This document shows positions 53,615 through 64,000 of a stretch of 64,000 nt of DNA, one piece after another. The translations under genes and the position numbers were made by a program. Source of the DNA: an uncultured Spirochaetaceae bacterium (GTDB taxonomy: Bacteria; Spirochaetota; Spirochaetia; Sphaerochaetales; Sphaerochaetaceae); the NCBI GenBank assembly GCA_944390725.1, contig CALXQU010000001.1, positions 62,001-126,000 on the forward strand. Reading direction: 5' to 3'. Within the stretch, counting starts at the first letter, position 1. The number at the start of each line of letters is the position of its first letter. Under the pieces are notes generated by a model. The model searched no databases and was not told the origin of the DNA. It saw only the letters and a program-made list of their open reading frames with translations.

Positions 53615-55690
53615 TCAGACGTAGAAGAGGATCTCCGAATATGTCGGGATAGGCCAGAAGGACCTATCGGCAATCATCTCGAGGCTGTCGCTGGCCTTCC
53701 TTGCCGCCTCCATGGCAGGGATGATGCTGTCTGCCGCATAGAATGCGGCCTCCATCGTGCCGGATGGGCCTGAGGCCATGCATCTGTCAAGCTCATCGAC
53801 ACGGAGCAGCAGCTCATCGCAGAGAGAGCTCACCCTGGCGCAGAGGGCCTTATCAGCCTCCGCTGCCACGCCTATCGCCTCCTTTGCCTGCGCGGAAGAG
53901 GCCAGCGAGGAGGAGAAGCGCAAGGCGGCCGGGATGATCTGGCGCCTCAGCATCTCGACCATCGTCCCCGCCTCTATATGTATCGCCTTCCGGTACTCAT
54001 CAAGCGATATCTCGAGCCTGGACTCCATCTCCTCCTCCGTATACACCTTATGCCTGCGGAACAGGGCGACATTCTTCCCATCGCAGTAATGGACAAGGGC
54101 ATCCGGCGTCCTCTTGTAGTTCGAAAGGCCCCTTCTCATAGCCTCGTCCTCCCATTCCCTGCTGTATCCGTTCCCGTTGAAGAGGATCCTCCGGTGCTCG
54201 CCGAGCTCCCTCCTGACCAGGGCATTGAGGGATGCATTGAAGTCATCGGCACCCTCAAGCTCATCGCAGAAATCCTTCAGCGCATCGGCAACCGCCGTAT
54301 TCAGCATCACGTTCGTGCAGGCGATGTTGAAGGAGGAACCGGGCATGCGGAACTCGAACTTATTGCCTGTGAATGCGAACGGGCTTGTCCTGTTCCTGTC
54401 CGAGTTGTCGCGTGCGAGCTTCGGCAGCACGCCCGTGCCGATATCGAGATGGGAGGATGACGTACGGCCCCTGAACGGCTTGTCCTCGATGATCGACTCG
54501 ATCACGGACCCGAGCTCATCGCCGACGAACATCGAGACGATGGCGGGAGGCGCCTCATTGGCTCCGAGGCGATGGTCGTTCCCCGCGCTTGCCACGCTTA
54601 TCCTCAGCAGGTCCTGATACTCATCCACGGCCTTTATCACAGCGGTCAGGAAAAGCAGGAACTGCGCATTGTCCTTGGGCGTCCTGCCGGGATCGAGGAG
54701 GTTCTCGCCCTCGTCCGTGCTCAGCGCCCAGTTGTTGTGCTTGCCTGATCCGTTGATGCCCTCGAACGGCTTCTCATGCAGGAGGCAGGCGAATCCATGG
54801 CGCTCTGCCACCTTCTTCATCATCTCCATTGTGAGCTGGTTGGCATCTGTGGCCTTGTTGGCGTTATCGAAGATCGGTGCCATCTCATGCTGGCACGGGG
54901 CAACCTCGTTATGCTCGGTCTTCGCCGTTATGCCGAGCTTCCAGAGCTCCTCGTCAAGGTCTGCCATGAAGGCCTTCACGCGCGGCCTGATCGAACCGAA
55001 GTAGTGGTCCTCCATCTCCTGTCCCTTGGCAGCCGGAGCGCCTATGAGCGTGCGCCCTGCCAGCCTGAGGTCCAGGCGCCTTGCATAGTCCTCCTTGTCG
55101 ATGAGGAAATACTCCTGCTCGGCACCGATAGTCGCATTGACCCTCTTCACATGCTTGCCGAAGAGCGCCAGGGCCCTCACGGCCTGGCAGCTTATCGCAT
55201 CCATGCTCCTGAGAAGCGGCGTCTTCTTGTCGAGGATCTGGCCGGTATAGGAGCAGAAGGCGGTAGGTATGCAGAGGGTATCATCCTTTATGAATGCATA
55301 GCTCGTGGGGTCCCAGGCAGTATATCCGCGTGCCTCGAATGTCGCCCTCAGCCCGCCGGAGGGGAAGCTGGAGGCATCCGGCTCGCCCTTCGTGAGCTCC
55401 TTGCCGGAGAAATCCATGATGACGCAGCCGTTCTTGTCGACCGTCAGGAAGCTGTCATGCTTCTCCGCCGTTATCCCGGTCATCGGCTGGAACCAGTGGG
55501 TGAAATGCGTGGCCCCCTTGCCTACGGCCCACTCCTTCATCGCGGCTGCCACGATATCAGCGACATCCTCGTCGAGGGCCTTCCCTTCAATCATGGTATT
55601 CTGCAGGGATTGATACACCTTTTTCGGAAGCATTTCTCGCATTACATGGTCATTGAAGACCATAGAACCGAACATCTCAGGTACGTTCAT
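53615..55690 (-). CDS. glnN: glutamine synthetase type III
   Basis: This 691-residue GSIII makes glutamine from glutamate, ammonia and ATP. Length and motifs are those of the GSIII class (ATFEARGYTAWDPTS, IGAEQEYFLID, KTEHNEVAPCQHE, NGSGKHNNWAL), distinct from the 428-residue type I enzyme encoded in the same operon. Start is ATG 55690 with AGGAGGAG 5 bases upstream. It follows the ANTAR regulator gene by 10 bases. Confidence 0.96.
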   Translation of the reverse strand: MNVPEMFGSMVFNDHVMREMLPKKVYQSLQNTMIEGKALDEDVADIVAAAMKEWAVGKGATHFTHWFQPMTGITAEKHDSFLTVDKNGCVIMDFSGKELTKGEPDASSFPSGGLRATFEARGYTAWDPTSYAFIKDDTLCIPTAFCSYTGQILDKKTPLLRSMDAISCQAVRALALFGKHVKRVNATIGAEQEYFLIDKEDYARRLDLRLAGRTLIGAPAAKGQEMEDHYFGSIRPRVKAFMADLDEELWKLGITAKTEHNEVAPCQHEMAPIFDNANKATDANQLTMEMMKKVAERHGFACLLHEKPFEGINGSGKHNNWALSTDEGENLLDPGRTPKDNAQFLLFLTAVIKAVDEYQDLLRISVASAGNDHRLGANEAPPAIVSMFVGDELGSVIESIIEDKPFRGRTSSSHLDIGTGVLPKLARDNSDRNRTSPFAFTGNKFEFRMPGSSFNIACTNVMLNTAVADALKDFCDELEGADDFNASLNALVRRELGEHRRILFNGNGYSREWEDEAMRRGLSNYKRTPDALVHYCDGKNVALFRRHKVYTEEEMESRLEISLDEYRKAIHIEAGTMVEMLRRQIIPAALRFSSSLASSAQAKEAIGVAAEADKALCARVSSLCDELLLRVDELDRCMASGPSGTMEAAFYAADSIIPAMEAARKASDSLEMIADRSFWPIPTYSEILFYV

Positions 55691-55700
55691 GATACTCCTC

Positions 55701-56252
55701 CTATGATAATTCCCGGACGATGCAGATCGCCGCGTCCGCAAGGCTTATGCGGCAATCCATCGCCTTCTTCTCTATATAGCTGTGGGCCTCAGGCTCACTC
55801 ATCCCCTTCTTCGCGGCAAGCAGGCACTTTGCCTCTGTCAGCAGCTTCTCGTTCTGCAGGCGCATAAGGAGCCTGCTGTTCTGCGCCTCGGCCTTCCGTA
55901 TCCTCTCCCTGGCGACGCCGATCGCGTCCAGCACCGCTGCGATGCAGCATCTGTCGGCAGCGGCGGAATAGACGCCACGGCCGCGCATCATCCCGGCAGC
56001 ATGCGCAGCAAGGTCCTCAGGGACGACAAGCAGCGTATCGATCCCCTGGGAAGCCGCGAACACGGAGACATCCTCCGGAACGCTTCCGGGAAGCATCGCG
56101 TCGACGATGACAAGCGAGAGCTGGAAATCAAGGATCTTCATCCTTGCCTCCCGCTCGCTTCCGGCCCTGATGAATGCATAGGCGCCGGGAGGAAGGAGCT
56201 TCCTGAGCTCATCGCACCTGGTACGTTCAGCGACCACAAGCACCGTTTCCAT
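55701..56252 (-). CDS. ANTAR-domain antitermination regulator
   Basis: This 183-residue protein has an N-terminal receiver-like domain (about residues 1-115, LSLVIVDAMLP containing the likely phosphoacceptor region) and a C-terminal ANTAR RNA-binding domain (about 128-183, LLTEAKCLLAAKKGMSEPEAHSYIEKKAM). ANTAR proteins bind paired hexaloop hairpins in nascent mRNA and prevent terminator formation. Lying between the type I and type III glutamine synthetase genes, it very likely controls their leader and perhaps the divergent glutamate synthase leader. Confidence 0.85.
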   Translation of the reverse strand: METVLVVAERTRCDELRKLLPPGAYAFIRAGSEREARMKILDFQLSLVIVDAMLPGSVPEDVSVFAASQGIDTLLVVPEDLAAHAAGMMRGRGVYSAAADRCCIAAVLDAIGVARERIRKAEAQNSRLLMRLQNEKLLTEAKCLLAAKKGMSEPEAHSYIEKKAMDCRISLADAAICIVRELS

Positions 56253-56261
56253 AGGCGCTGC

Positions 56262-57548
56262 CTACACGAACCTGAAATACCGGTCGATCAGATAGCCATG
56301 GTCCCTTCCGCTTCCCTCATACCCCTCGGCCTCGGCAGCCTTGTCTTCCAGATAGCCATCGATGATGCCGGAAGGTATGACGCTGCGGACGAACTGGCTC
56401 TTCCGCGTTTCCGCAACCGCCTCGGAAAGGCTCTGGGGGAGCCTCTCCGGAAGCGGCGAGGAAAGCATATCCCCTGCTGCTTCCGGTTCTGGCTCAAGCC
56501 CATCCGCGATGCCTTCGAAGCCTGCGGACAGGATAAGGGAGATAAGGAGGTATGGATTCGCAGCAGGGTCAGGGCTCCTGACTTCCATCCGGCAGTCATG
56601 TCCCTCGGCATACGGTATCCTGACGAGCGTCGACCTGTTCTGGTGGCTCCAGGAGACAGTGGAAGGCGCCTCGAACAGCCCCAGCCTCTCATAGGAGGAA
56701 GCGAGCGGGTTGGCAAAGGATGACATCTCCCTCATCCTCCGGAGGATTCCCGCCATGAATGACATCGCCTTCGCATCTTCCGTCGCGAAGAGGTTCCTGC
56801 CTTCCTCATAGAGGGAAAGGTTTATATGGAGGCCGTTCCCGCTCTCATCGCAGAGAGGCTTGGGCAGGAACGACGCGAACAGGCCATGCTGCTGCGCGAT
56901 TGCCTTGACGGCGGTCTTGAACGTCATCAGGTCATCGGCCGCCTTCAGGGGCGATGAGCAGCGGAAATCGATCTCATTCTGCCCGGGACCATGCTCATGG
57001 TGGCTCCTCTCGGGCTTGAGCCCCATGTCCTCCAGGGCGAAGCAGATCTCGCGCCTGACATTCTCGCCCCTGTCCAGCGGAGCCATATCGAAGTAGCCGG
57101 CCTCGTCAAACGGCTCAAGGGTCGGGAATCCCTTCTCATCGGTCCTGAAGAGGTAGAACTCGCACTCAGGCCCCACGAGGAATGAGTATCCGGCCTGCAG
57201 GCTTCTCCTCTCTATCTGGGAAAGAAGGTACCTCCCATCCCCCTCGAAGGGCCTGCGGTCAGGATACGTGATATAGCAGTAGAATCTGGCGACGCCCCTC
57301 TCCGAAGGCCTCCACGGCAGGACGGAGAACGTGTCGAGGTCCGGGAACAGCAGCAGGTCGGACTCGCTGATGTTGAGGAATCCCTTTATCGCGGAGGCAT
57401 CGAAGGAAACGCCGTGAGTGACGGCATGCTCGAGCTCATCTGCCATGATTGCGATGTTCTTCTGCCTTCCGGCGATATCGCAGAAAGCAAGGCGGATGAA
57501 CTTGATCCCATACTCAGCCAGCAGCTCTCTGATATCATTCAGGTCCAT
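56262..57548 (-). CDS. glnA: glutamine synthetase type I
   Basis: This 428-residue GSI has the family motifs: FDASAIKGFLNISESDL, VGPECEFYLF, HHEHGPGQNEIDF, NGLHINLSLYEEGRNLF and the late VRIPYA arginine region. It is slightly short for GSI (usual 440-470) and lacks a clear adenylylation tyrosine loop, so control by antitermination would be plausible. Start is ATG 57548 with GGGAGGA 5 bases upstream. It begins the operon glnA-ANTAR-glnN. Confidence 0.94.
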   Translation of the reverse strand: MDLNDIRELLAEYGIKFIRLAFCDIAGRQKNIAIMADELEHAVTHGVSFDASAIKGFLNISESDLLLFPDLDTFSVLPWRPSERGVARFYCYITYPDRRPFEGDGRYLLSQIERRSLQAGYSFLVGPECEFYLFRTDEKGFPTLEPFDEAGYFDMAPLDRGENVRREICFALEDMGLKPERSHHEHGPGQNEIDFRCSSPLKAADDLMTFKTAVKAIAQQHGLFASFLPKPLCDESGNGLHINLSLYEEGRNLFATEDAKAMSFMAGILRRMREMSSFANPLASSYERLGLFEAPSTVSWSHQNRSTLVRIPYAEGHDCRMEVRSPDPAANPYLLISLILSAGFEGIADGLEPEPEAAGDMLSSPLPERLPQSLSEAVAETRKSQFVRSVIPSGIIDGYLEDKAAEAEGYEGSGRDHGYLIDRYFRFV

Positions 57549-57567
57549 AAGAATCCTCCCTTAACGG

Positions 57568-57608
57568 AAAAAGCGCCGCAGATACACCAATCTGCAGCGC
57601 CCTTGCTG
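57568..57608 (-). promoter_or_regulatory. glnA leader attenuator with ANTAR-type hexaloop
   Basis: On the minus strand, arms 57600-57590 and 57583-57573 form an 11-bp terminator with a five-T tail. Just upstream, CAGC/GCTG (57608-57605 with 57598-57595) encloses the hexaloop AAGGGC, with A1 and G4 as in ANTAR targets, and its 3' arm overlaps the terminator's 5' arm, so the two are mutually exclusive. A promoter TTGACT-18 bases-TATCAT lies upstream (57654-57625). A second hexaloop (P1) was not found. Confidence 0.6.
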
Positions 57609-57743
57609 TCCTTGGCTGGATGATATGCATTCTGGCGCGGGATAGTCAAGTGGCAATATGCATCAGACTGCATTTTTATCCGGATCATATCCATATGCGC
57701 AATTGACAAGCTTGAGCGATATGTCGTAAAAGTACCACAGGAC

Positions 57744-57782
57744 AAGGACGTTCTAAGAGAGATCTTAGTGCGTCCTTTTTTT
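57744..57782 (+). terminator. leader terminator of the glutamate synthase operon
   Basis: AAGGACG (57744-57750) pairs with CGTCCTT (57771-57777), with an inner CTAAG/CTTAG stem capped by hexaloop AGAGAT (A1, G4), and a long T-run. It lies between a TTGACA (57703-57708) promoter and the first gene, so transcription must pass it. Confidence 0.8.
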
Positions 57783-57800
57783 CATTTCCAGAGGTGCCCG

Positions 57801-58895
57801 ATGAAGAAAGAAGGAGAAGTGAGAATCAGTTCCGGCTGCGCGATCAGCGGCATATTCTGCCGTAACGGCAAGCGCATCACCGGGGAAGCGATAAGGAAGA
57901 GCATCGCCGTGATGCACAACAGGTCGAACGGGCTCGGCGGAGGCTTTGCCGCCTATGGGATATACCCGCAGTACAGCGATTTCTTCGCCCTGCACATATT
58001 CTATGACTCGCAGTCGGCAAGGGAGGAGACGGAGAGGTTCCTGGACAAGCGCTTCGACATAATAAACCTGTCGAAGATACCTGTGCGGCAGACGCCGAAG
58101 ATACCGGACCCGCCGCTGATCTGGCGCTATTTCATCACGCCGCTTCCCCATCTCCTGCAGGACAGCCAGCTGGATGAGGATGAGTACACATCAAGGGCCA
58201 TGCTCAGGATAAACGATTCCCTCAAGGGCGCGTATGTCGTCTCCTGCGGGAAGGACATGGGCGTATTCAAGGCAGTGGGATACCCAGAGGACGTCGCCGA
58301 TTTCTACCGCATAGAGGAGTATGAGGGCTATTCCTGGACAGCGCATGGCCGCTATCCGACTAACACGCCAGGCTGGTGGGCAGGCTCCCATCCGTTCTCG
58401 CTGCTTGACCTGACTGTCGTGCATAACGGAGAGATTTCATCCTATGATGCCAACCGCAGAGCGGTGGAGATGTACGGCTACCCATGCAACCTCCTGACGG
58501 ATACGGAGGTGATCACATACATACTGGACTACCTCACAAGGAAGCAGGGCCTCACGCTCCGGGAATGCTCCCGCGTGATCGCCGCGCCATTCTGGACGAC
58601 GATTGCCATCAAGGATGAGGAGGAGCGGTCCAGGCTCTCATACCTGAGGAAGATGTACTCCTCCTTCCTCATAACAGGCCCCTTCTCGATACTAGTCGGA
58701 TTCAGGGGCGGGATGATGGCGCTCAACGACAGGCTCAAGCTCAGGAGCCTCGTCGCGGCCGAAAAGGGCGGCACCGTCTATTTCAGCTCCGAGGAAGCGG
58801 CGATACGGGTCATCGAAGATGATCCCGACAGGGTCTGGGCTCCGCGCGGAGGCGAAGCCGTGATCGTCACGCTTGATAAGGAGGCTGCTGTATGA
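57801..58895 (+). CDS. glutamate synthase, glutaminase (class II GATase) subunit
   Basis: This 364-residue protein corresponds to the amidotransferase domain of GltB as a separate chain. The nucleophile is Cys13 in SSGCAISGIF, expected to be exposed by removal of a short propeptide. Conserved blocks NRSNGLGGGFAAYGIY, HGRYPTNT and VVHNGEISSYDANR bind glutamine and release ammonia. Start ATG 57801 is preceded by AGAGGTG, the same ribosome site as lon. It is divergent from glnA with an attenuator in its leader. Confidence 0.88.
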   Translation: MKKEGEVRISSGCAISGIFCRNGKRITGEAIRKSIAVMHNRSNGLGGGFAAYGIYPQYSDFFALHIFYDSQSAREETERFLDKRFDIINLSKIPVRQTPKIPDPPLIWRYFITPLPHLLQDSQLDEDEYTSRAMLRINDSLKGAYVVSCGKDMGVFKAVGYPEDVADFYRIEEYEGYSWTAHGRYPTNTPGWWAGSHPFSLLDLTVVHNGEISSYDANRRAVEMYGYPCNLLTDTEVITYILDYLTRKQGLTLRECSRVIAAPFWTTIAIKDEEERSRLSYLRKMYSSFLITGPFSILVGFRGGMMALNDRLKLRSLVAAEKGGTVYFSSEEAAIRVIEDDPDRVWAPRGGEAVIVTLDKEAAV

Positions 58896-60376
58896 GGAGA
58901 TTCAGGATCAGGAAGGATGAGGGCTGCATCTCATGCCTCAGATGCGCCAGGGAATGCTCTTTCGGCGCTATCGAGGCCGGGGAGGACAGGACACTCGTAT
59001 TCCACCATGAGAAGTGCACGGATTGCCAGCGCTGCGTATCATGCTGTCCGGCCGGGGCCATCTTCATAACCGAGGATGGGAACAGGTTCAGGCATGGCAG
59101 CGTATTCACCGATGATGATATCCGGGAAATACTCCTGCAGGCGGAGACAGGGGGCGTGCTCCTCTCCTCGATGGGGGCCTCCGGCAAGGATATCCCCATC
59201 TACTTCGACAGGCTCCTGCTGAATGCAAGCCAGGTCACGAACCCATCGATCGACCCGCTGAGGGAGCCTATGGAGACAGCCGTGTTCCTGGGAAGGAGAC
59301 CCGAGGGGATACAGCGGGACAGCGAGGGAAGGATCGTCGACAACCTCCCTCCCCATCTGGAGCTCAGGACCCCGATAATGTTCTCTGCGATGAGCTACGG
59401 GGCAATCAGCCTCAACGTGCACAAGGCGCTTGCCGCGGCAGCCGAAGAGCTGGGGACATACTGGAACACAGGCGAAGGAGGGCTGCATGAAAGCCTGTAC
59501 CCCTTCAAGGGCAGCACCATAGTCCAGGTCGCCTCCGGCCGCTTCGGGGTGCATGAGACATACCTCAACACGGCAGCGGCTATCGAGATAAAGATCGGCC
59601 AGGGAGCGAAGCCCGGCATCGGCGGCCACCTTACGGGCAAGAAGATCATAGGCGATGTCTCGAAGACCAGGATGGTGCCGGAAGGGCTGGATGCCATCAG
59701 CCCGGCTCCCCACCACGACATCTACTCCATCGAGGACCTTGCCCAGCTGGTGATGTCGATAAAGGAAGCGACCCACCATGAGAAGCCGGTGATCGTCAAG
59801 GTGGCTGCCGTGCACAACATAGCCCCGATCGCTTCCGGAATCGCCCGCAGCGGCGCCGACATCATCTCCATCGATGGCTATCGCGGCGGCACGGGAGCGG
59901 CCCCGAAGCGCATCCGCGACAATGTCGGCATACCGATCGAGCTCGCGATCGCCTCGGTCGACCAGAGGCTGAGGGAGGAAAGGATAAGGGACAGGGTCAG
60001 CGTCATCGCCTCCGGAGGGATCAGGAACTCGGCTGATGCCGTCAAGGCCATAGCGCTCGGCGCGGATGCGGTCTCCATCGGCACGGCCGCGCTCTGCGCG
60101 CTTGGCTGCCATGTATGCGCTTCCTGCCATACGGGAAGATGCGCCTGGGGGCTTGCGACGCAGGATCCGCAGCTCACGGGAAGGCTGGACCCGGAGAAAG
60201 GGGCCGCAAGGCTCATCAACCTCGTGAACGCATGGACCCGCGAGATCAAGGAGATCATGGGAGGGATGGGGATAAACAGCATCGAGGCGCTCAGGGGCAA
60301 CCGCATGGCGCTCAGGGGAGCCGGCCTCAATGAGAAGGAGCTTGAGATCCTCGGAATCGGATATGCAGGAGAATGA
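58892..60376 (+). CDS. glutamate synthase, FMN-binding synthase subunit
   Basis: The 494-residue central subunit carries two N-terminal 4Fe-4S clusters (CISCLRCARECSFGAI and CTDCQRCVSCCPAGAI) followed by the FMN and 2-oxoglutarate-binding barrel (MSYGAISLNVHKALA, GEGG, GQGAKPGIGGHL, DGYRGGTGAAP) and an additional cysteine cluster near the end (CHVCASCHTGRCAWG). The N-terminal ferredoxin-like domain suggests it takes electrons from ferredoxin; no GltD-type NADPH subunit is in the cluster. It overlaps the previous gene by 4 bases (ATGA). Confidence 0.92.
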   Translation: MRRFRIRKDEGCISCLRCARECSFGAIEAGEDRTLVFHHEKCTDCQRCVSCCPAGAIFITEDGNRFRHGSVFTDDDIREILLQAETGGVLLSSMGASGKDIPIYFDRLLLNASQVTNPSIDPLREPMETAVFLGRRPEGIQRDSEGRIVDNLPPHLELRTPIMFSAMSYGAISLNVHKALAAAAEELGTYWNTGEGGLHESLYPFKGSTIVQVASGRFGVHETYLNTAAAIEIKIGQGAKPGIGGHLTGKKIIGDVSKTRMVPEGLDAISPAPHHDIYSIEDLAQLVMSIKEATHHEKPVIVKVAAVHNIAPIASGIARSGADIISIDGYRGGTGAAPKRIRDNVGIPIELAIASVDQRLREERIRDRVSVIASGGIRNSADAVKAIALGADAVSIGTAALCALGCHVCASCHTGRCAWGLATQDPQLTGRLDPEKGAARLINLVNAWTREIKEIMGGMGINSIEALRGNRMALRGAGLNEKELEILGIGYAGE

Positions 60377-60377
60377 G

Positions 60378-61094
60378 ATGAAGGAAATTGATATCAGGAA
60401 AGACGGGCTAGAGGCAGTCAGGAAGCAATCTGGCGGCGATGTCGCCGTAACAGGCTGCCTCGGGGAAAGGTATATAGGATGCGGCATGAAGGATGGCATC
60501 CTCCGCATAAAGGGGACGCCGGGAAATGCGCTTGCATCCTACCTCGACGGCGGCACGGTGCTTGTCGACGGCAATGTGCAGGATGCTGCCGCGGACACGA
60601 TGAATGACGGGCTCCTCGCCGTAAGGGGCTCGGCCGGCGATGCCCTTGCATACGGCATGCGCGGAGGGCGTGTCTATGTCCTCGGCGACGCAGGCTACAG
60701 GGCCGGCGTCCACATGAAGGCATACGGGGACAGGAAGGGGATCCTCGTCATAGGAGGGCGGTCAGGTTCCTTCCTGGGGGAATACCTTGCCGGAGGCACC
60801 ATCATCGTCCTCGGGCTCGGCTACGAAGGCAGGGACATAACCGGGTACTTCTGCGGCAACGGCATGTATGCCGGCACGATCTACCTGCGGACCGGGAAGG
60901 CCCCTCTCAACCTCTCTGACAAGCTCATAAGGCGCGCTGTCGGGGAAGATGAGGAAGAACAGGTCATCCGCCCGATAGTCGAGGACTTCGCGTCTGTCTT
61001 CTCCATCCCGGCAGCATCATGCCTCGAGGGCGGGTTCATCGCCATCGAAGCTGACAGCTCGAAATCGTACAGCCAGCTCTATGCTGCAGTCTGA
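60378..61094 (+). CDS. glutamate synthase, C-terminal GXGXG domain subunit
   Basis: The 238-residue protein is the alpha-subunit C-terminal beta-helix as a separate chain, with repeated G-rich turns (LDGGTVLVDG, MRGGRVYVLGDAG, LAGGTIIVLGLG, FCGNGMYAG). This domain holds the enzyme together structurally. It starts one base after the previous stop with AGGAG 6 bases upstream. Confidence 0.9.
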   Translation: MKEIDIRKDGLEAVRKQSGGDVAVTGCLGERYIGCGMKDGILRIKGTPGNALASYLDGGTVLVDGNVQDAAADTMNDGLLAVRGSAGDALAYGMRGGRVYVLGDAGYRAGVHMKAYGDRKGILVIGGRSGSFLGEYLAGGTIIVLGLGYEGRDITGYFCGNGMYAGTIYLRTGKAPLNLSDKLIRRAVGEDEEEQVIRPIVEDFASVFSIPAASCLEGGFIAIEADSSKSYSQLYAAV

Positions 61095-61102
61095 GGCCTG
61101 CC

Positions 61103-62689
61103 ATGTGTACCGTATTCGCTTATAGGGGAAGCGCGATAGGGCTTCCCCAGATCAGGACAATACTTGAAAGGACACGGAGGAGAGGCCCCGACTCCGAACG
61201 GGTCATATCTCCGGAGGACGGCCTCTTCCTCGCCTTCCAGAGGCTCTCGATAATGGGCATCGACGAACGGGGGATGCAGCCCTTCGCATACAAGGGCATG
61301 TACAGCATCACCAATGGCGAGATCTACGGCTTCAGGGATATCCGCAGGAAGCTCGAGGCCGAAGGCTATGACTTCCATTCGGATTCGGACTGCGAGACCA
61401 TCCTCTATCTCTACGGCAAATACCATGAGAAGATGTTCGCCATGCTGGATGCGGAGTATGCGACCGTCATATACGACAGGGAGGAAGGGCTTGTCGCGGC
61501 GCGTGACCCGATAGGCATCCGCCCCCTCTTCTACGGCTATGACAGGGACGGCATGATCGCATTCGCAAGCGAGGCATGCCTCCTCACCCCGTTCTGCCGC
61601 GAAGCCATCCCCTTCCCGCCCGGGCACTATTACAAAGGCGGGGAGTTCATCTGCTACAGGGACATCTCATCGGTGAAGGCATACGCATACGGAACCGTCG
61701 ATGAGGTAGCGGGGAACATCAGGGAGAAGCTCATCAGGGCCGTGGAGAAGCGCCTTGACTCCGATACCCCTGTCGCCTTCCTGCTCTCAGGGGGCCTCGA
61801 CAGCTCCCTCGTCTGCTCGATTGCTTCCAGGATCCTCGGCAAGCCCATCCATACATTCTCCATCGGGATGGACAGGGACCCGATAGACTCGAAATACGCA
61901 GAGCGTACAGCCAGGTTCCTCGGTGCGGTACACACCGATGTGACCATGACGGAGAAGGACGTGATATCCATCCTGCCTGAAGTCATAGAGTCCCTGGCGA
62001 CATATGACATAACGACGATACGTGCGAGCATCGGCATGTTCCTCCTCTGCAGATACATCCATTGCCATACGGAATTCAGGGTGCTGCTCACGGGGGAGGT
62101 ATCCGATGAGCTCTTCGGCTACAAATACACAGACTTCGCCCCCAATGCGGAAGAATTCCAGAAGGAAAGCCAGAAACGCGTCCATGAGCTCTATGCCTAT
62201 GACGTGCTGCGCGCCGACAGGTGCATCGCCGACAACAGCCTCGAGGCAAGGGTTCCCTTCGGGGACCTGGACTTCGCCTCCTACGTGCTCTCGATCGACC
62301 CGGAGATGAAGATGAACCGCTATGGCCATGGCAAATACCTCCTCCGCAAGGCATTCGAGGAGGGGAACTGGCTGCCTGACGACATCCTCTGGCGGGAGAA
62401 AGCTGCCTTCAGCGATGCTGTCGGACACAGCATGGCCGATGGCCTGAAGGCATATGCCGCGAGGCGCTATGAAGGCAGGGACCTCGAGGCGGAATACCGC
62501 AGGTACCCGGAGGACGGGAGGCCGTTCACCCCTGAATCGCTGCTGTACAGGGAGATATTCGAGAGATTCTATCCCGGCCAGCACCGCATGATACCGGGCT
62601 TCTGGATGCCGAACAGCAGCTGGCCCGGCTGCCAGGTATCCGACCCATCGGCCCGCGTGCTGGCAAACTACGGCAAAAGCGGGGAATGA
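61103..62689 (+). CDS. asnB: asparagine synthetase B (glutamine-hydrolysing)
   Basis: The 528-residue enzyme makes asparagine from aspartate, ATP and glutamine. Cys2 follows the initiator methionine as the glutaminase nucleophile (MCTVFAYRG), the class II domain shows RRRGPDSE and NGEIYGF, and the synthetase domain has the PP-loop SGGLDSSLVCSI near residue 229. It is slightly shorter than E. coli AsnB. It is the last gene of the glutamate-synthase operon, with an 8-base gap. Confidence 0.94.
   Translation: MCTVFAYRGSAIGLPQIRTILERTRRRGPDSERVISPEDGLFLAFQRLSIMGIDERGMQPFAYKGMYSITNGEIYGFRDIRRKLEAEGYDFHSDSDCETILYLYGKYHEKMFAMLDAEYATVIYDREEGLVAARDPIGIRPLFYGYDRDGMIAFASEACLLTPFCREAIPFPPGHYYKGGEFICYRDISSVKAYAYGTVDEVAGNIREKLIRAVEKRLDSDTPVAFLLSGGLDSSLVCSIASRILGKPIHTFSIGMDRDPIDSKYAERTARFLGAVHTDVTMTEKDVISILPEVIESLATYDITTIRASIGMFLLCRYIHCHTEFRVLLTGEVSDELFGYKYTDFAPNAEEFQKESQKRVHELYAYDVLRADRCIADNSLEARVPFGDLDFASYVLSIDPEMKMNRYGHGKYLLRKAFEEGNWLPDDILWREKAAFSDAVGHSMADGLKAYAARRYEGRDLEAEYRRYPEDGRPFTPESLLYREIFERFYPGQHRMIPGFWMPNSSWPGCQVSDPSARVLANYGKSGE

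Positions 62690-62711: not shown

Positions 62712-64000
<1,289 letters not shown>

Follow-up and report, generated by a model that had tools for sequence, protein, structure and literature searches.

The locus and its genes

In the window analysed here, a stretch of 64,000 nucleotides from an uncultured gut Spirochaetaceae bacterium, the glutamine synthetase gene glnA and a split glutamate synthase operon (glt) are transcribed divergently from a short intergenic stretch. This locus raises the question of whether the product of an ANTAR gene in the glnA operon could control both operons through hairpins in their leader RNAs, and whether it could do so with a single hexaloop in each leader, when published ANTAR targets are double hairpins (PMC3369931, PMC8934654). 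The genes concerned are the following.

53615 to 55741, minus strand: type III glutamine synthetase (GSIII), third gene of the glnA operon (Pfam PF12437)
55701 to 56252, minus strand: ANTAR regulator gene (NitR-like), second gene of the glnA operon (Pfam PF03861)
56262 to 57548, minus strand: glnA, type I glutamine synthetase (Pfam PF00120/PF03951)
57549 to 57800: intergenic stretch between glnA (minus strand) and the split glutamate synthase operon (plus strand)
57801 to 58895, plus strand: glutamate synthase, class II amidotransferase subunit, first gene of the glt operon
58892 to 60376, 60330 to 61094 and 61103 to 62689, plus strand: further glt-operon genes, in this order Glu_synthase, GXGXG and AsnB
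63162 to 64000, minus strand: pyrG (CTP synthase), cut by the end of the window

The PF03861 reading frame behind glnA agrees with the first-pass annotation, which had placed the ANTAR gene second in the glnA operon, and it is the single ANTAR match in the whole genome. The two genes adjoin each other here, as they do in most related loci. The GSIII reading frame as called overlaps the ANTAR gene, and its true start is probably downstream of 55741. An Rfam scan of the window gave no match. The named relatives used below are uncultured spirochaetes, including Candidatus Ornithospirochaeta, and most of the genomes compared are metagenome assemblies.

Hexaloop hairpins and terminators in the glnA and glt leaders

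The glnA leader contains a predicted promoter, a hexaloop hairpin (P2) and an intrinsic terminator.

57620 to 57649, minus strand: predicted glnA promoter, with -35 TTGACT (57649-57644), -10 TATCAT (57625-57620) and an 18-base spacer
57595 to 57608, minus strand: P2 hairpin CAGC-[AAGGGC]-GCTG, hexaloop at 57599-57604
57568 to 57600, minus strand: intrinsic terminator GCGCTGCAGAT-tggtgt-ATCTGCGGCGC-TTTTT, with an 11-bp stem and the loop TGGTGT

The -35 and -10 boxes are conserved in 14 aligned sequences, and 11 bases separate the -10 box from P2. The 5' side of the terminator consists of the loop and the 3' arm of P2, and the two structures are mutually exclusive; sequence and fold thus both bear out the overlap between this hairpin and the 5' arm of the terminator that had been described in the first pass. 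The leader as a whole folds at -24.7 kcal/mol (z of -4.2 versus shuffles), while P2 alone reaches -4.8 kcal/mol, a stability no greater than that of shuffles, so that the reality of the small hairpin rests on its conservation.

The glt leader is built in the same order on the other strand.

57703 to 57732, plus strand: predicted glt promoter, with -35 TTGACA (57703-57708) and -10 TAAAAG (57727-57732)
57739 to 57754, plus strand: P2 hairpin AGGAC-[AAGGAC]-GTTCT, hexaloop at 57744-57749
57744 to 57782, plus strand: intrinsic terminator, with a GAGA tetraloop at 57759-57762 and a T-run at 57776-57782

The gap between the -10 box and P2 is six bases, and the 5' side of the terminator is shared with the loop and the 3' arm of P2, the same overlap as in glnA. 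The first-pass annotation had instead taken AGAGAT (57758-57763), at the tip of the terminator, as the ANTAR hexaloop of this leader. That assignment did not hold, since the tip folds as a GAGA tetraloop on a 6-bp stem and A1 and G4 are not kept in relatives, where most variants have a GNRA tip (GTGA, GCAA, GTAA or GAGA) on a conserved flanking stem; the non-GNRA tips are one 3-base loop and two 5-base loops. The proper hexaloop, AAGGAC, lies a few bases upstream of AGAGAT and was absent from that annotation.

A third leader at pyrG

The 2.08 Mb genome was scanned for the loop pattern followed by a T-run, and the matches were inspected by eye. The only ones recognised as leaders of this kind were those of glnA, glt and pyrG, the last of which lies about 320 bases past the end of the window.

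64322 to 64368 in window-equivalent numbering (G000:C1:126322-126368): pyrG leader TGGAC-[AAGGAC]-GTCTA followed by a terminator

Leaders of this form were found in 14 of the 15 related pyrG upstream regions of full length. A standalone pyrG usually carries the leader, while a pyrG directly behind the ANTAR gene is without one of its own. The motif is mostly found at whichever gene heads the transcription unit, and it is absent from pyrG or glnA where these lie within an ANTAR operon.

Promoter spacing and the missing first hairpin

The position of the promoters was compared over a list of 98 to 99 leaders that pools spirochaete and clostridial sequences, chosen by their paired stem, in which related leaders are not independent. 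Pairs of -35 and -10 boxes were scored in each leader, with a threshold of 9 or more. A promoter reaching this threshold had its -10 box ending 4 to 18 bases before P2 in 83 of 98 leaders, versus 3 of 98 at 22 to 36 bases before P2, and shuffles reached the threshold in 3.2%. The usual distance from the -10 box to the transcription start is six to eight bases; from this spacing and the position of the -10 box, P2 is predicted to start no more than about ten bases from the 5' end of the RNA. The predicted -10 boxes located 4 to 18 bases before P2 therefore leave no room for a P1 in most leaders.

No P1, that is, a second hexaloop upstream of P2 across a short linker, was found in the leaders of the window, and none was seen conserved in its genus. 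Upstream hairpins with an A1/G4 hexaloop were present in 11 of 99 leaders, versus 2 to 10 for other pairs of loop letters (10 for TT), and about half of these 11 belong to double glt leaders of a sister genus or to other tandem units. The sister-genus glt leaders (L153, L154, L156 and L157, same family) have two A1/G4 hexaloops, with linkers of 25 to 40 bases and a promoter that precedes P1. They serve as an internal positive control and show that the scan can detect a P1. A search of the clostridial genomes with PF10662 for a eut operon, intended as a further positive control, gave mostly weak matches and no eut locus was seen. The sequence AAGGAC upstream of P2 in the glnA leader of the window was considered as a P1 and rejected, as no stem flanks it and relatives do not conserve it. 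The first-pass remark that P1 was missing and the structure not canonical was consequently strengthened by the promoter spacing and by the counts of upstream hexaloops.

It is improbable, in our estimation, that transcription starts further upstream and that these are canonical double-hexaloop leaders with an overlooked P1. The three characterised systems, EutV, NasR and AmiR, all have both P1 and P2 (PMC3369931), and the four sister-genus glt leaders do have two hexaloops. However, most leaders have a conserved promoter right before P2, and the upstream A1/G4 hairpins are scarcely more frequent than those with TT, with none seen to be conserved in the genus of the window.

Conservation, covariation and co-occurrence with the ANTAR gene

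The ANTAR gene is present in 42 of the 48 genomes of the window's genus, and the glnA, glt and pyrG leaders recur in nearly all the ANTAR-positive ones. A P2 hairpin overlapping the terminator was seen in the glnA and glt leaders of a first set of close relatives, and then in held-out genomes (12 of 12 close relatives for glnA and 11 of 11 for glt). Loop bases A1, A2 and G4 are part of the search pattern (C-AANGNN-G); they were also invariant in close relatives in a gene-by-gene alignment made without a loop filter, while loop positions 3, 5 and 6 varied freely. The terminator explains part of this conservation of the loop and the 3' arm.

The stem pairs covary (CAGC/GCTG, GAAC/GTTC, CAAC/GTTG, TGAC/GTCA, GGAC/GTCC and others); a more diverged subgroup has TGAC/GTCA as its glnA stem and CAAC/GTTG at GSIII. 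Pairing was then evaluated on matches anchored on the loop pattern C-AANGNN-G only, free of any selection for a paired stem. At ANTAR-positive loci, all three outer pairs were formed in 99 of 121 such matches, versus a mean of 29.6 and a maximum of 43 in 1000 shufflings of the partner arms, and versus 13 and 4 when the arms were slid by one or two bases. The covariation across relatives on which the first-pass annotation had proposed to judge the hairpins is thus well above both the shuffled and the slid controls.

In the genomes of the family without an ANTAR gene, the 34 upstream regions inspected, which were those of glnA, GSIII and pyrG, all lacked the hairpin motif; three loop matches occurred and none was paired. 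In two same-genus relatives with 1.5 Mb genomes (G032 and G058), the ANTAR gene, type I glnA, glutamate synthase and pyrG were undetected; both keep GSIII, without a hexaloop leader. The loss of the hairpins from relatives that keep the ANTAR gene had been named beforehand as one observation that would refute the proposal of the first pass, and each such same-genus relative examined has the hairpin in at least one leader. Single leaders lacking the motif were those of glnA in G088, glt in G016 and pyrG in G130.

These results bear on the possibility that the leaders contain plain terminators, serving attenuation or the insulation of divergent transcription, with no role for ANTAR and with the hairpin as a by-product of the terminator's shape. 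The terminators are indeed strong (z of -4.2 to -5.7), and A1, A2 and the G's of the loop pair within them. Yet the 5' arm of P2 lies outside the terminator stem and covaries with the 3' arm, glnA, GSIII, glt and pyrG carry the motif on differing stems, and it was seen in none of the 34 ANTAR-less upstream regions, all of which makes this explanation very unlikely.

An equally slim chance is given to one ANTAR dimer bridging both divergent nascent leaders, with one hexaloop each in trans. The leaders start about 120 bp apart, facing away from each other, in the window and in most close relatives, but single-hexaloop leaders persist where glnA and glt are non-adjacent (G052, G082 and G099) and at the solitary pyrG, and no fit of EutV to two hexaloops on the same RNA was possible (PMC8934654). 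Such bridging is not required, as single leaders survive the separation of the genes. A glt target located in the tip hexaloop AGAGAT, which does have A1 and G4, can practically be discarded, given its GAGA fold, the mostly GNRA tips of relatives and the fact that a protein on the tip would stabilise the terminator and not prevent it.

The first-pass proposal that one ANTAR protein of the glnA operon sets both glnA and glt is strongly supported by the P2-terminator overlap in both leaders, the covariation and the matching presence and absence of the ANTAR gene, although the evidence it had drawn from AGAGAT for glt was wrong. The leaders share with known ANTAR targets an A1/G4 hexaloop whose stem has 3 bp or more, the overlap of the 3' arm of P2 with the 5' arm of the terminator and the co-occurrence with an ANTAR gene; they are without the dual hairpin. 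Their anatomy, conservation, covariation, fold and co-occurrence with the ANTAR gene argue that the glnA, glt and pyrG leaders are very probably ANTAR-controlled attenuators with a single hexaloop.

GSIII leaders show two variations. The hairpin of a distant relative (L253), CAAC-[GAGGGT]-GTTG, carries G at the position where A1 is otherwise constant, and two leaders (L017 and L160) have two hexaloop-terminator units in tandem before one gene.

The ANTAR regulator

The ANTAR protein of the window has 183 residues, with a receiver-like domain, a long coiled-coil helix and an ANTAR bundle. The PF03861 match (47 bits versus a cut-off of 27.3) lies after the coiled coil. The AlphaFold model has a pLDDT of 94.5, and the best solved matches found with Foldseek were Rv1626, EutV with RNA, and AmiR. 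Among the residues by which EutV contacts RNA, Lys149 and Glu160 are kept, Tyr164 is replaced by His, and Arg142 and Lys147 are not kept.

In the receiver, Asp51 is kept while the acidic pair and the Lys are absent, and the Asp site is an Asn in most relatives outside the genus. Control of the regulator by phosphorylation is unlikely from its sequence, because the receiver is without the acidic pair and the phospho-acceptor is mostly Asn outside the genus. A phosphorylatable receiver does not define ANTAR proteins in general. The activity of AmiR is set by AmiC, and by analogy an AmiC-like partner or a ligand probably sets that of the ANTAR protein; no AmiC gene was identified adjoining the ANTAR gene of the window. 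The ANTAR gene lies behind glnA in most related loci, and glutamine synthetase is perhaps the sensor.

Proposed mechanism

In the reading of the leaders as single-hexaloop attenuators, for which we infer the promoters and starts, the binding, the antitermination and the signal, the nascent leader would by default fold into the intrinsic terminator and transcription would end after about 50 bases. An active ANTAR protein would bind the one hexaloop hairpin at the 5' end (C-[AANGNN]-G, with a stem of 4 to 5 bp) as the RNA leaves the polymerase. The bound P2 would sequester the 5' side of the terminator, and the polymerase would proceed to transcribe glnA-ANTAR-GSIII, the glutamate synthase genes and pyrG, which encode enzymes making or using glutamine. 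Since one of these targets precedes the ANTAR gene itself, self-amplification of the circuit is predicted.

By analogy with Enterococcus faecalis, one hexaloop might be too little, since deleting P1 or altering the length of the linker abolishes or cuts induction by EutV there (PMC3369931, PMC8934654). EutV nevertheless binds isolated single hexaloops in vitro as well as it binds the pair, one hexaloop at a time, and the authors of that work expected single-hexaloop sites only in settings free of a race with the polymerase (PMC8934654). On balance we lean towards a widespread spirochaete and clostridial class of leaders, at glnA, GSIII, glt and pyrG, with one hexaloop at the 5' end, in which P1 would be dispensable when P2 emerges first and the receiver would be non-phosphorylated and possibly gated by glutamine synthetase.

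Comparison with known ANTAR systems

The leaders resemble that of eutP in having an A1/G4 P2 that overlaps an intrinsic terminator, and the regulator resembles EutV in its succession of receiver, coiled coil and ANTAR domain. The EutV system depends on phosphorylation by EutW and on both P1 and P2, joined by a short linker, whereas the window leaders are without P1 and the receiver is without the acidic pair. The protein is closer to AmiR of Pseudomonas aeruginosa in combining a non-phosphorylatable receiver with the ANTAR fold and in having a His at the site of EutV Tyr164; the amiE target of AmiR, unlike the window leaders, is a double hairpin (PMC3369931).

NitR of Clostridium saccharobutylicum, the ANTAR protein of a nitrogen-assimilation cluster, is described as capable of antitermination (Stutz et al. 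2007, doi 10.1099/mic.0.2007/005371-0, as relayed in PMC6316151) and is said to induce the GS/GOGAT genes under nitrogen limitation (PMC6316151). As far as that description goes, both are ANTAR proteins of a nitrogen-assimilation cluster, and the gene of the window adjoins glnA as a NitR gene should, while the window belongs to another phylum and has a divergent glt, GSIII in the operon and pyrG in the regulon.

A covariance search has found ANTAR targets at the genes for glutamate and glutamine synthases (PMC3369931), with the same gene functions and the same overlap of P2 with the terminator as in the window. That search would tend to miss single-hexaloop leaders, because its element was defined as a dual hairpin. 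That ANTAR proteins control nitrogen genes, glutamine and glutamate synthases among them, is known (PMC3369931; for NitR, PMC6316151), and what is new is the single-hexaloop attenuators, NitR being compared by description only. Our literature search found no report on ANTAR in spirochaetes, or on ANTAR together with pyrG.

What the first ANTAR hairpin does is puzzling, since EutV binds isolated hexaloops and P1 is yet needed in vivo (PMC8934654). Naturally conserved leaders without P1, beside a sister genus with P1 at the same gene, offer a direct test by leader swap. The leaders described here would extend ANTAR control of nitrogen metabolism to the GS/GOGAT and CTP synthase genes of host-associated spirochaetes, and they provide a simple motif that double-hairpin searches tend to miss, namely a promoter, C[AANGNN]G on a short stem within 4 to 18 bases, and then a terminator.

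Additional observations

Elsewhere in the genome (L278, G000:C6), an AmtB ammonium transporter is fused to a GlnK/PII domain in one reading frame of 600 residues, and the pattern scan found no hexaloop leader at that gene. In the intergenic stretch, an AT-rich block (57640-57705) lies between the divergent promoters and is conserved in close relatives. It contains repeats phased at about 10 to 11 bp (ATGGATA, GGATAAAAATGCA and ATGCATA) and, judging by its sequence, may be where a second regulator binds the DNA.
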